In this document: one piece after another, positions 13,178 to 23,783 of the stretch
How the letters are laid out: every line of letters begins with the position of its first letter
Numbering within the stretch: the first letter of the stretch is position 1
IMG/VR virus record: IMGVR_UViG_3300037502_000646
Coordinates: 1-23,898 of that record
Reading direction: 5' to 3' (one strand)
Source: a virus
DNA length: 23,898 bases
The notes under the pieces: model-generated
What the model was told of the DNA's origin: nothing
Database searches by the model: none
What the model saw: only the letters and a program-made list of their open reading frames with translations
Made by a program: the position numbers and the translations under genes

Positions 13178-13209
13178 AACAAATTACGTATTTATACTAT
13201 TATTAAGTA
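13178..13209 (+). promoter_or_regulatory. Putative phage late promoter, copy 4 (portal/lysis operon)
   Basis: AACAA at 13178-13182, 15-nt spacer (one longer than the other copies), TATTAT at 13198-13203, TAAGT, then the A of the ATG at 13209. It lies just downstream of a terminator, as a fresh promoter would. Confidence 0.55.
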
Positions 13210-13559: not shown

Positions 13560-14873
13560 ATGAAAATATTCGGATTCGAAATAGGAAAAAAAGAAAGCGT
13601 TCAAGTGGTTGAGGGCAACAATTATCAAGCGTTTTCAACGCCTTTTTTAAAGGTTGGTGAGGGTAATCTAAGTTTACCATACGTAAACCCTAGACAACAA
13701 GTTAACGGTTATATTCGATTTGGTTCGGACAATTTGTATAGTCAGCTACTTAACCAAATGTACTATACAAGTCCACTACACGGTGCTATCGTGGATTATA
13801 AAACAAATGCTGCTGTTGGTGGTGGGTTTGAGTTGACCGTTGACAAGAATGCAACTGCAACGGAAAAAGTAGACGTTTACACCTTTGATAAGCGCACTAA
13901 CTTGAAACAGCTTGTTCCAATACTAACGAAAGACGTTATTATTCACAATAGAGCGTACTTTTACCTTTGTTTTAATCAAATAGGCGACCTAATTAAAATC
14001 AAACACATTGGAGCGGAAAAGATTCGAAAAGATAAGTACGGAGAAACTTACTTTATTTGCGAAGACTGGAGTTCACAAATTGATATTAAAGAAATAAAGC
14101 CTTATCGATGGAACTTAAAACAACGTGAATGTTTGTATGTTTACGAAAATAAGTCTGTAGGACAAGACGTATATCCCATTCCGCAATATTCGAGTGCAAT
14201 GAATTGGGCGTTTTTGGATGGTGAAATGTCGTATTTGCAAAAGTCTAATATAATAAACTCAATTTTCCCATCGTTTGCAATGATGTTCCCTAAAAAACCA
14301 CAGAGCGAAGAGGAAAAAATCGCAATCAAAAACACTATCGATAAGGCGAAAGGCGCGCAAAACGGAGGAAAAGCAATTGCGTTCTTTGCAAACAATGCTG
14401 AAAGCCTACCAAAAATCGAATCCATACCAACGAATTCAAACGACAATTTATTTCAAAACACGACTGAAAGTATAGATTCAAAGATTTGTCAAGCGCATAT
14501 AATCGACCCAATATTAATGGGAATAAGAGTTAGTGGTAAACTTGGTTCAGGAAGTGACATTAAACAAGCTTATATTATTTTCGAGAAAAACACGATTATT
14601 CCTTTACGTGGTATTATTGAAGAAATATTTAACGACCTAATGGAAATATGCCAAGTTAAAGCAACGCTTTCAATAAACAACTTCCAAATAGTAAACGAAA
14701 CAATTGTCGAGAGAGACGAAAACGTTTCAGCAATAAACGACGCTTTGAGTACAATGCGACCAGAACTAGCGGTTAAAGTTTTGGAAAATATGACCGTTAA
14801 CGAAATTCGTGCAATGGCTTCTTTACCACCGATTGAAAACGGAGATTCTAATAATCAAACACCTGCGCAATGA
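13560..14873 (+). CDS. Portal protein
   Basis: A 437-residue protein that would form the dodecameric ring through which DNA enters and leaves the head. Recognisable features: N-terminal GEGNLSLPYVNPRQQVNGYI, then DNLYSQLLNQMYYTSPLHGA and IVDYKTNAAVGGGFEL, which match the clip/wing start of phage portal proteins; a middle segment rich in beta strands (IKHIGAEKIRKDKYGETYFI); a helical stem candidate near 260-330; and a C-terminal region with MRPELAVKVLENMTVNEIRAM. The portal lies downstream of the capsid gene, which is unusual for classical siphoviruses. The stop overlaps the next ATG by 4 nt. Confidence 0.8.
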   Translation: MKIFGFEIGKKESVQVVEGNNYQAFSTPFLKVGEGNLSLPYVNPRQQVNGYIRFGSDNLYSQLLNQMYYTSPLHGAIVDYKTNAAVGGGFELTVDKNATATEKVDVYTFDKRTNLKQLVPILTKDVIIHNRAYFYLCFNQIGDLIKIKHIGAEKIRKDKYGETYFICEDWSSQIDIKEIKPYRWNLKQRECLYVYENKSVGQDVYPIPQYSSAMNWAFLDGEMSYLQKSNIINSIFPSFAMMFPKKPQSEEEKIAIKNTIDKAKGAQNGGKAIAFFANNAESLPKIESIPTNSNDNLFQNTTESIDSKICQAHIIDPILMGIRVSGKLGSGSDIKQAYIIFEKNTIIPLRGIIEEIFNDLMEICQVKATLSINNFQIVNETIVERDENVSAINDALSTMRPELAVKVLENMTVNEIRAMASLPPIENGDSNNQTPAQ

Positions 14874-21777: not shown

Positions 21778-21953
21778 AAGCCTATTATTTAATTTACCAA
21801 TCGGAGGGTGTTCGTGACTGGAGGATAGTCCAGGCGCATTCAAACGAGGATGCTGTTAAAAAAGCGGACATTCACCCTAAATTGATTTACCACGTTTCGA
21901 CATTAGAAGCTTGGGAGAAATTCAACCAAGAACGTAGAGGGTTTTATAAATAA
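21774..21953 (+). CDS. 59-residue protein with TTG start
   Basis: A small ORF beginning at TTG (21774-21776), overlapping the stop of the SSB-like gene as TTGA: KAYYLIYQSEGVRDWRIV, then QAHSNEDAVKKADIHPKLIY and TLEAWEKFNQERRG. The strand-helix-strand pattern and the tight overlap support a real gene. The TTG start follows from the overlap; no ATG exists upstream in frame within the operon spacing. The function is unknown. Confidence 0.6.
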   Translation: MKAYYLIYQSEGVRDWRIVQAHSNEDAVKKADIHPKLIYHVSTLEAWEKFNQERRGFYK

Positions 21954-21982
21954 CACTTTCGTTTTTTTTATATTATTAAATA
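21952..21982 (+). promoter_or_regulatory. Putative phage late promoter, copy 5 (drives a structured RNA)
   Basis: AACAC at 21952-21956, 14-nt spacer, TATTAT at 21971-21976, TAAAT, then A21982: identical geometry to the copies before 576, 4738, 10637 and 13209. Here the position of the ATG is taken by AGG, and the downstream sequence is a hairpin structure rather than an ORF. This copy argues that the motif acts in transcription, not translation. Confidence 0.5.
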
Positions 21983-22074
21983 GGTCACTTCCAACGTTAT
22001 ATGACCTAACTAAAATTTTTAGACCCTTTGTAATGAAGTAGAAGTTGGAAGCTATGGATTTACAGAGGGTTTTT
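21982..22074 (+). ncRNA. Candidate small RNA: two hairpins with complementary loops
   Basis: Hairpin 1: TAGGTCA (21981-21987) pairs with TGACCTA (22002-22008), 14-nt loop. Hairpin 2: ACCCTTTGTAA (22023-22033) pairs with TTACAGAGGGT (22060-22070), 11 bp with one wobble and a 26-nt loop, extendable by two pairs, then a T-run (22070-22074) as in a terminator. The loop of hairpin 1 starts with CTTCCAAC (21988-21995), the exact reverse complement of GTTGGAAG (22044-22051) in loop 2. All three helices can coexist as a kissing-loop fold. A small 5-bp stem (22010-22014 with 22018-22022) may lie between them and competes only with the two-pair extension of hairpin 2. The 5' end fits the promoter above. 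No function is known. Confidence 0.5.
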
Positions 22075-22091
22075 AATTTAAAATAATTTAT

Positions 22092-22271
22092 ATGCAACTT
22101 TTAATTAAATCAATGAATTCAGATGGTGAAATTGAATTTTATCGAACTGACGAGAAAGAGTTAATGGTGTCAATTTTAAACGGTCACGGTGAAACATATT
22201 ACACTATGAATGAATACGAAATTAAAGCTTTAGTTGACTATATAAAATTAACAGATGAGCGGTTGGGTTAA
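22092..22271 (+). CDS. 59-residue protein of unknown function
   Basis: MQLLIKSMNSDGEIEFYRTD, then ELMVSILNGHGETYYTMNEY and EIKALVDYIKL. It starts 18 nt after the T-run of the candidate small RNA and ends 17 nt inside the replication-initiator gene, so it is probably co-translated with it. A beta hairpin followed by a helix is suggested. No family is recognised. Confidence 0.55.
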   Translation: MQLLIKSMNSDGEIEFYRTDEKELMVSILNGHGETYYTMNEYEIKALVDYIKLTDERLG

Positions 22272-22914
22272 AATACATCGTCAATTTTTAAACTGGGAGT
22301 GGTTTAACAAAAGCGAAGCGGTTCATTTGTTTATGTATTTACTTTTAAAAGCTAACCACGCCAAAGGAACTTGGCAAGGTAATACAATTAACAAAGGTCA
22401 GTTTATAACTTCATACGGTAAGATTTCAAGTGATACGGGAATATCAATTCAAACGATTAGAACGTTATTAAAAAAGTTTGAAAAAACGAACGAAATTAAC
22501 ACGCAAACAACAAACAAATTTACACTTATAACTATCTGTAAATACGACACTTATCAAAGCGAAGAAGTACCAAATAACAAGCAACTAACAAGCAATCAAC
22601 AATCAACTAACAAACAACTAACAACAAACAAGAATAATAAAGAAGAAAAAGAAAGTAATATACCAACTATCGAAGAATTTGTTGTTTATGGTTCGTCAAT
22701 AATAAACGATGTTTCAATTGATGCTCTTAAACTTAAATACCAAAGTTGGTTGGTTAATGGTTGGTGTACAAGTAAAGACGGTAAATTAAAGAAAATAGTT
22801 AATTGGAAGTCAACTTTAAGTAATACTGTTCCATACTTACCAAAGGAACTTAAACAACCAAAGTCGAACGACCAGCTATTTTACGAGAACGTAATGAAAC
22901 AACTAGGAAAATGA
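22255..22914 (+). CDS. Replication initiator / helicase loader-like protein (winged helix)
   Basis: A 219-residue protein. Residues 1-105 resemble the N-terminal winged-helix domain of phage DnaD-like replication proteins: GWVKIHRQFLNWEWFNKSEA, LFMYLLLKANH, GQFITSYGKISSDTGISIQT and IRTLLKKFEKTNEI. Residues about 105-140 are a low-complexity Asn/Gln/Thr/Lys linker of slipped AAC/AAC-like units (22568-22640). The C-terminal domain (IDALKLKYQSWLVNGWCTSK, then IVNWKSTLSNTVPYLP) resembles helicase-loader tails that act with the following helicase. It overlaps the downstream ATPase gene by 4 nt. Confidence 0.7.
   Translation: MSGWVKIHRQFLNWEWFNKSEAVHLFMYLLLKANHAKGTWQGNTINKGQFITSYGKISSDTGISIQTIRTLLKKFEKTNEINTQTTNKFTLITICKYDTYQSEEVPNNKQLTSNQQSTNKQLTTNKNNKEEKESNIPTIEEFVVYGSSIINDVSIDALKLKYQSWLVNGWCTSKDGKLKKIVNWKSTLSNTVPYLPKELKQPKSNDQLFYENVMKQLGK
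22568..22640 (+). repeat. Low-complexity CAA/AAC-rich tract in the replication initiator gene
   Basis: Imperfect repeats of CAACTAACAA- and CAATCAA-like units coding for an Asn/Gln/Thr/Lys linker (KQLTSNQQSTNKQLTTNK). Likely prone to slippage and length variation. Confidence 0.6.
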
Positions 22915-23783
22915 TATTAAAACACGGACATAGCACTCAATACTTACTTGACTACAAAGATGGTAAGATATCTCAAGGTTTAGGAATAGGATGCGTTTTA
23001 GACGATTATTTGAGATTCAAGGTTAAACAACTAAACATCGTTCTAGGTCACGATAATGTCGGTAAGTCTTTTTTTATGCTTTGGTACTTCCTTGCTTTAG
23101 CGGTTAATCACAATTTGAAATTCGTGTTGTGGATGGGTGAGAATTCAAGCGGTCAAGTAATGCGTGATTTAATACAGATGTATTCAGGAAGAAAGTTTAC
23201 CGAACTAACGAAACACGAAATCATTGCCTATCAAAACGAACTAGAAACTAAATTTAAGTTTATAAGTAACGAACAAATGTACACACCTCAAGAGATATTA
23301 AAGCTAATTGAATCAACTGACGCAAACGTCGGATTTATTGACCCATTCACGGGACTTAATCGAGGTATGCAGCATTCTGATAACTACGAGTTTCTAAATT
23401 ATACTAGGGACTTTTGCAACCGCACAGGAAAAACTTTGTACATTTCAACGCACCCAAATAGTGAAAGTGGACGTAACTCGATGATTTACCCTCAAGAACA
23501 TCACTGGCACGGTCATTTAAAACCACCATTAAAGGCTCACATTGAAGGCGGTAAGCCGTTTTTAAATAGGTGTGACGATATGATAGTTATCCACCGACTC
23601 GTAAAACACGCAGAAATGAAATATATGACAATGGTCGAAGTAGAAAAAATTAAAGACCGAGACACGGGTGGACAACAAACCGAACTTAATCAACCTTTAT
23701 TATTTGATTACAATTACGGGTTAGGATTTAAGATAGGAGGTGTTGACCCAATAAAACGAATTAATAACGATTTACCTTTTTAA
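22911..23783 (+). CDS. RecA/DnaB-type replicative ATPase (helicase)
   Basis: A 290-residue P-loop ATPase of the RecA/DnaB superfamily (AAA_25/RepA-like). Walker A is GHDNVGKS (residues 46-53), followed by FVLWMGENSS; Walker B is VGFIDPF (Asp144); then LYISTHPNSES, a sensor-like segment, and an Arg-containing region. It lacks a DnaB N-terminal domain. The C-terminus ends RINNDLPF, the same DLPF tip as the SSB-like protein at 21550. Placed directly after a helicase-loader-like gene, it is probably the replicative helicase or a RepA-like DNA translocase. The overlap with the upstream gene is 4 nt. Confidence 0.75.
   Translation: MILKHGHSTQYLLDYKDGKISQGLGIGCVLDDYLRFKVKQLNIVLGHDNVGKSFFMLWYFLALAVNHNLKFVLWMGENSSGQVMRDLIQMYSGRKFTELTKHEIIAYQNELETKFKFISNEQMYTPQEILKLIESTDANVGFIDPFTGLNRGMQHSDNYEFLNYTRDFCNRTGKTLYISTHPNSESGRNSMIYPQEHHWHGHLKPPLKAHIEGGKPFLNRCDDMIVIHRLVKHAEMKYMTMVEVEKIKDRDTGGQQTELNQPLLFDYNYGLGFKIGGVDPIKRINNDLPF

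Follow-up and report, generated by a model that had tools for sequence, protein, structure and literature searches.

A two-hairpin RNA ahead of the replication genes

The window, i.e., the whole stretch of DNA that was analysed, is an IMG/VR virus record of 23,898 bases. A tape measure gene is encoded in it beside the genes for the terminase large subunit and the portal, and its recombination and replication region comprises an Erf-like annealing protein, an exonuclease and an SSB, after which come a DnaD-like helicase loader and a DnaB/primase-helicase-type ATPase. The kissing-loop RNA has the SSB-side genes on one side and, on the other, a 59-aa ORF that precedes the loader. The features are as follows.

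3-545: terminase large subunit (phrog_5653, 8.6e-26)
13560-14873: portal
21953-21981, plus strand: promoter of the window clade, ACACTT ... TATATTATTAAAT; motif start at 21969, 14 nt before 21983
21982-22074, plus strand: whole RNA, about 92-94 nt (match to covariance model R1 at 21982-22075, 81 bits; covariation)
21982-21987, plus strand: 5' strand of stem P1, AGGTCA (helix 1; both-sided changes in all six pairs, with T21981-A22008 as a seventh pair)
21988-21995, plus strand: kissing sequence of loop 1, CTTCCAAC; partner at 22044-22051
21996-22001, plus strand: unpaired rest of loop 1, GTTATA; conserved, with the family form A-nn-AUA; length 6 nt in 81 of 92 RNAs
22002-22007, plus strand: 3' strand of P1, TGACCT; 7 bp with T21981-A22008
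22008-22020, plus strand: A/U-rich linker, 13 nt here; 11-17 nt in the family and 12-13 nt in 72 of 92
22021-22033, plus strand: 5' strand of the terminator stem P2, AGACCCTTTGTAA (fold and covariation)
22034-22037, plus strand: internal loop UGAA facing GGAU at 22056-22059; candidate tandem G-A module, its non-canonical pairing predicted from the letters
22038-22041, plus strand: 5' strand of P3, GTAG (helix 5; both-sided changes in all four pairs)
22044-22051, plus strand: kissing sequence of loop 2, GTTGGAAG, preceded by AA in the loop (covariation)
22052-22055, plus strand: 3' strand of P3, CTAT (covariation)
22060-22074, plus strand: intrinsic terminator, i.e., 3' strand of P2, TTACAGAGGGTTT (22060-22072), plus the U-run (22070-22074)
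22092-22271, plus strand: small ORF, 59 aa, next after the RNA; the first downstream gene varies among phages
22255-22914, plus strand: DnaD-like helicase loader, the gene family most often found after the RNA
22911-23783, plus strand: DnaB/primase-helicase-type ATPase, used as the query for fetching related loci

Hairpin 1 reads AGGTCA-CTTCCAACGTTATA-TGACCT, and CTTCCAAC and GTTGGAAG are exact reverse complements over 8 nt, as a preliminary description of this DNA had noticed; by chance, two such loops would share an 8-nt complement with a probability of 0.0008. RNAfold, which is unable to display a loop-loop helix, returned both hairpins (MFE -24.2 kcal/mol, z -2.4, 3 of 200 shuffles equally good). 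The 7 bp given in that description for hairpin 1 held, while the outer stem, noted there as 11 bp, has 11-13 bp, and the gap between the hairpins is 12-13 nt rather than 14 nt. Its terminator-like second hairpin was recovered with the U-run, and its compact RNA of about 93 nt, in which start, structure and end agree, is borne out by the R1 match and by covariation in relatives.

The internal loop below P3 is variable and takes the forms UGAA/GGAU, UGAU/UGAU, AGUA/GAA or, in reverse order, GAAA/GAGUA. The first two would be tandem G-A modules and AGUA/GAA would be loop-E-like. These putative modules interchange among relatives, suggesting that their role is architectural.

Distribution and covariation of the fold

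We fetched 80 related loci through the ATPase, ignoring the RNA in the selection. About three quite different versions of this ATPase occur among the related phages. Blastn and reading of the loci located the RNA at the equivalent place, with loop sequences that differ and yet are complementary. A covariance model lacking the kissing pairs, R1, matched 54 of the 80 loci with E below 1e-7, and the matches outside its training set (L128, L138, L140, L141, L148, L149, L153 and the second copy of L189) all have 8-nt loop pairing. A core-motif scan of IMG/VR gave at least 120 contigs, and R1 was strong in 78/78 loci newly fetched by the core-motif pattern, in which some letters of hairpin 2 were preset, including the G, U and A of loop 2, while loop 1, P1 and the promoter were free. 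Another IMG/VR pattern, CTTCCAACN{10,40}GTTGGAAG, was discarded because it is palindromic and mostly matched unrelated hairpins. When 35 IMG/VR contigs were searched whole, 31 had a strong R1 match and two contigs had two. A sequence-agnostic descriptor, which requires that a downstream hairpin with a U tail have a loop complementary to that of P1, gave 145 matches in 1.67 Mb of related phage DNA against 0 in shuffled copies; the matches listed all look like members of this family.

Altogether, the RNA is present in more than 150 IMG/VR contigs and in one cultured phage, Tenacibaculum phage Gundel_1 (MT732474.1; host Tenacibaculum sp. AHE14PA), which has a genome of 78.8 kb and no reported integrase (PMC8776804). 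With the window RNA as the query, blastn found nothing credible among cultured phages, and it was the RNA of a relative that matched Gundel_1. No convincing RNA was found in the cultured flavobacterial phages P12024L/S, GDF21, Arctus_1, Calle_1, phi38:1 and Panino or in the metagenomic ctnlZ23, and seven relatives (L170, L194 and L197-L201) have no detectable RNA although their upstream sequence is present. The core motif was not found in about 85,000 bacterial and archaeal genomes, and an ATPase-based search for bacterial carriers also returned none. From the promoter type, the GC content and Gundel_1, we infer that the hosts are Bacteroidota of the Flavobacteriia type. The carriers found look virulent. 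Two contigs (G002 and G034) have exact repeats of 123-127 nt at their ends (L358 start and L359 end, L364 start and L365 end) and are therefore probably complete genomes of about 30 kb.

A search of Rfam 15 (4227 families) with the RNAs of the window, the Gundel_1 region and six relatives gave none above the gathering cut-off, and the window scores at E<=10 were at chance level. The RNA thus still appears to be undescribed, as it was called at the outset. A description of the family was likewise not found in the literature searched, a scope outside which preprints and most subscription papers fell.

Some ATPase relatives lacking a strong R1 match have, at the equivalent position, an RNA built to this plan, its P1 being 4-5 bp long. 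In these type B RNAs the loops are 6 nt long and paired over their full length (GGGCAG/CUGCCC, GUGCAG/CUGCAC, GAGCAG/CUGCUC), so that the kissing helix is 6 bp in type B and 8 bp in type A. A scan for type B yielded 44 genuine cases beside 54 matches to the pattern by chance, with a TAnnTTTG promoter before 42/44 of the former against 2/54 of the latter.

A first set of RNAs, chosen by loop complementarity, was circular, and the covariation claim rests instead on the kissing-free model R1, itself built from a set chosen partly by loop complementarity. With R1, 92 distinct RNAs were aligned using no kissing information. The structure cells were paired in 96.1%, compared with 71.4% after shuffling and at most 46% with partners slid by 1-3 columns, and both-sided changes were seen in 587 cells against 155 after shuffling; these shuffle tests are inflated by the relatedness of the RNAs, but the varying kissing pairs nonetheless each show several pair types. 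The cells of the kissing pairs were paired in about 97-99% (97.5-98.9%), and both sides change in 6 of the 8 pairs. The other two (A-U and C-G) are essentially invariant and therefore uninformative for covariation. When all 3,828 column pairs were ranked without regard to structure, by a G statistic with APC correction and sequence weighting, the top 18 were all structural, with 13 stem pairs and five kissing pairs. A mutually exclusive antiterminator helix was absent from these top 18 pairs, which all belong to P1, P2, P3 or the kissing helix, and this counts against a classical attenuator or riboswitch. Among 85 distinct RNAs, the loops pair over at least 8 nt in 75, over 7 nt in eight and over 6 nt in two. 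One of these two, at L168:804-895, has mismatched loops (GGTCTGAC against GTGAGAGC) and is perhaps a recombinant of two loop types.

The compensatory changes that the preliminary description had named as its comparative check were thus found in the stems and in the loop pair alike. They show that the shape of the RNA, including the loop-loop pairing, is kept by selection.

Covariation alone is compatible with pairing within one molecule and also with dimers. Pairing of an RNA's own loops averages -11.5 kcal/mol, against -4.1 for loops of different RNAs. In L276, which carries two RNAs, own-loop pairing is -10.4 and -12.6 and cross pairing -0.6 and -1.0. The loops of L276 that do not cross-pair, the fixed linker (12-13 nt in 72/92) and the 6-nt remainder of loop 1 (81/92) favour intramolecular kissing, and the loops probably kiss within one molecule rather than in rings like those of the phi29 packaging RNA (pRNA). 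This bears on packaging, one of three functions that the preliminary description had left open, beside a regulatory and an anti-defence role. A packaging RNA that forms rings by intermolecular loop pairing would explain why complementary loops covary, and the promoter of the window clade is of the type seen at structural-region genes. However, linker and loop remainder fit one molecule, and type B has fully paired 6-nt loops at the same place. Because the terminase large subunit and the portal are encoded, and because most members have host-type promoters and head the replication operon, packaging is disfavoured, and we regard it as highly improbable.

Promoter, terminator and the genes that follow

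In the window, TACTATTAT motifs stand exactly 14 nt ahead of the ATG at the structural-region genes 576 and 13209. At 21969 the motif occurs as the variant TATATTATT, 14 nt ahead of 21983, i.e., the first bases of hairpin 1; the promoter-like motif with late-gene geometry that had been noticed at the 5' end of the RNA thus has the same spacing. Promoters of this type, TACTATTATnnAGTA, are located at 562-576, 13195-13209 and 21969-21983, the last exactly before the RNA as throughout the window clade. The exact 14-nt distance to the structural-region ATGs suggests leaderless or near-leaderless mRNAs. Relatives have TACTATTATTTAGTA at the equivalent site, and most other relatives have the host-type TAnnTTTG instead. 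The -7 box TAnnTTTG of Flavobacterium psychrophilum sigma-A spans -12 to -5 (PMC9723704). Since TAnnTTTG ends 3-6 nt (mode 4 nt) before the first model position in 73/85 distinct RNAs, the predicted +1 is the first base of P1. The same RNA can follow either promoter type, as in L132:4279 (CTTAATAGTATA) and L134:2421 (TTATATTTGTA), a natural promoter swap.

Conservation extends to the U-run, from which the next ATG is 11-22 nt away in most loci, typically near 19. No TAnnTTTG was found between the U-run and the next ATG in 83/85 RNAs, which suggests that the downstream gene probably depends on read-through. To judge from the letters and their conservation, promoter, RNA and terminator together are a conserved autonomous unit. 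Two 5'-terminal stem-loops right behind an early-type promoter also recall putL of phage HK022 (PMC9378689), in which case the RNA would bind the elongating polymerase in cis and make it terminator-resistant. This seems quite improbable, because the RNA itself ends in a conserved U-run terminator and has no resemblance in Rfam.

The RNA lies nearly always directly before the loader gene, a family of 81 members with a variable N-terminal part, and the ATPase, with zero or one small ORF between; the genes upstream vary among loci. In the loci read it is sense-oriented and directly ahead of an operon. Four loci (L181, L184, L276 and L189) have cassettes inserted after the RNA, which encode PAPS-reductase-like and ParB-like proteins or a ParB-like protein and an MT-A70 methylase (names assigned by reading of the sequences), and then a second RNA, with another loop pair, before the replication operon. 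In L271 the RNA precedes an HNH gene and a 799-aa primase-helicase-like protein. The Gundel_1 copy, at record positions 33905-34000, stands among structural genes, and about 15 nt further on is an AntA/KilAC antirepressor gene. The RNA is thus bound neither to a particular replication protein nor to replication in general.

The loader genes show two further features. Their N-terminal halves are swapped between phages while the C-terminal tail is retained (cluster C0). Direct repeats of 11-12 nt, some longer, occur inside related loader genes, of which 45/81 are clearly repeat-rich; in the window, 11-nt direct repeats lie at 22557-22622. They are possible iterons of a replication origin and encode an Asn/Gln/Thr/Lys-rich linker.

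The RNA of phage lambda called OOP was once proposed to prime an origin. By analogy, the RNA or its transcription could prime or activate an origin formed by the loader-gene repeats. It lies about 300-750 nt upstream of such repeats in many loader genes, and in L271 it stands even before an unrelated primase-helicase module. However, the Gundel_1 copy sits between structural genes, one RNA in L276 and in L181 is about 2.7 kb from the repeats, the extremes of GC skew lie away from the RNA in five near-complete contigs, and the terminator would free the RNA before the repeats. We therefore consider an origin function unlikely.

In a subset of members the RNA has a link to the downstream leader. 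Of 32 distinct type-B leaders, 10 contain an exact copy of the loop-1 hexamer of their own RNA, located 6-7 nt beyond the U-run and immediately ahead of the ATG. Base frequency predicts 0.24 such copies, none of 5000 shuffles reached 10, and several of the downstream genes differ. Such copies occur in L379, L383, L374, L426, L437, L446, L451, L459 and L462, and also in the type-A RNA of L271, where CTTCGAC stands just before the ATG, independently of type B. In those members loop 2 would thus be able to pair with the leader. In type A, L271 is the one clear case among 92 RNAs, and a search for antisense sites of the loop sequence in the whole locus gave 8 where 14.8 were expected. Leader pairing therefore cannot be the general function.

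Function and known systems

We tentatively propose, at a probability of about 45%, that the RNA is a self-terminating regulatory RNA at the head of an operon, folded by its kissing loops. Transcription would run from the first base of hairpin 1 to hairpin 2, yielding an RNA of about 92 nt. The terminator would halt most polymerases, which leave a stable RNA behind, and a minority would read through into the operon, the RNA serving as a gate for its expression. Loop 2, on the terminator hairpin, would normally be paired with loop 1; in some members it could switch to the loop 1 copy before the downstream start codon, and this pairing, in cis in the read-through mRNA or in trans, may limit translation of the operon. 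The conserved unpaired A..AUA of loop 1 and UUA of the linker might be where a protein, RNA polymerase or the ribosome reads the fold. The operon-head place, kept despite unrelated first genes (the loader, the cassettes, HNH plus primase-helicase, the antirepressor), supports this proposal, as do the leader copies of loop 1 in some members. However, in gene-dense phage genomes read in one direction any intergenic RNA lies near the next ATG, which weakens it.

A bolder form of the proposal, which we find rather doubtful, is a new RNA class in which a terminator loop is held by a kissing helix with the 5' hairpin and switches to an identical sequence in the downstream leader. Such an RNA would regulate replication genes through two alternative partners of its terminator loop, and the loop pairs would drift apart into sets orthogonal to each other.

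Much of the same evidence is shared by the main rival reading, possible though not the one we prefer, in which the folded RNA acts in trans by binding a host protein (a defence effector, RNA polymerase or a nuclease) as an inhibitor or decoy, anti-defence included, and its place merely reflects synteny. Nearly all members have their own promoter at +1 and their own terminator, so that the downstream gene is not needed; the RNA is kept despite the promoter-type swap between L132 and L134 and, in Gundel_1, away from replication genes; and its conserved unpaired nucleotides could be a protein site. The AbiF RNA of C. difficile has a like layout of promoter, RNA, terminator and gene and binds protein (PMC12373285). 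However, the RNA was always sense and directly before the operon in the loci read, and the loop copy in the leader ties it to the downstream mRNA in some members. Neither a toxin or defence gene beside the RNA nor a partner gene common to all carriers was found, and known antitoxin RNA families such as RF03085 gave no match. The remaining probability belongs to something else.

To our knowledge, little charting has been done of structured RNAs in virulent phages, and a function has been assigned to few of them. In this family the fold has been fixed by evolution down to the base pair, and one isolate from a cultured host, Gundel_1, carries the RNA. Gating of the replication operon by the RNA would, if true, amount to a new mode of early phage gene control, and binding to a host protein, if that is what it does, would point to a target in a class of bacteria that has received little study.

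Among known systems, the AbiF RNA has the most similar layout. The RNA of this kind from a C. difficile phage, RCd22 (RF03085), is structured, with two hairpins, its own start and terminator, and a gene reached by read-through (PMC12373285). Like it and like the type III antitoxin RNAs (ToxI), the kissing-loop RNA is about 90-115 nt long and has a start site and a terminator of its own, with a gene directly behind it. However, a toxin gene is needed there, whereas here the genes are those of the loader, the ATPase, DNA-modification cassettes, HNH or an antirepressor; the fold, with kissing loops between the 5' hairpin and the terminator hairpin, also differs, and no Rfam model matches. The c4 antisense RNA of phages P1 and P7 controls an antirepressor gene by pairing near the ribosome binding site (reviewed in PMC12197685). 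The Gundel_1 RNA also precedes an antirepressor gene, and in some members the loop is copied in the leader that follows. Here, in contrast, the loops pair mutually, most members have no antisense site, the carriers look virulent and Rfam gives no match; loops complementary to the downstream translation start, the c4 feature, occur in a subset only (10/32 type-B leaders and type-A L271).

The putRNA of HK022 has two stem-loops behind a phage early promoter, is about 70 nt long and suppresses termination (PMC9378689). The two stem-loops just behind the promoter are alike, but in our RNA the second hairpin is the terminator itself. The phi29 pRNA forms a 4-bp intermolecular pairing in the packaging motor (PMC7357161). 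Complementary loops in a phage RNA are common to both, whereas here the helix has 8 bp (or 6 bp) and is probably intramolecular, and the phage has a terminase; phi29-like packaging machinery in its place was not encountered in the window (terminase large subunit at 3-545). An OOP-like origin RNA is antisense to regulator or replication transcripts and near ori, while this RNA is sense and the putative repeats lie 300-750 nt downstream. T4-type phages are said (Arbiol et al. 2010) to have promoter-early-stem-loop cassettes, in which a promoter plus a hairpin heads genes as a mobile regulatory unit. Our RNA resembles them as a unit of promoter and hairpin and differs in its kissing fold, its strong covariation and its usual single copy per genome. 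None of the tested defining features of AbiF, c4, put and pRNA holds across the kissing-loop family, which appears to be an undescribed family of structured RNAs common in virulent phages of Flavobacteriia-type hosts.
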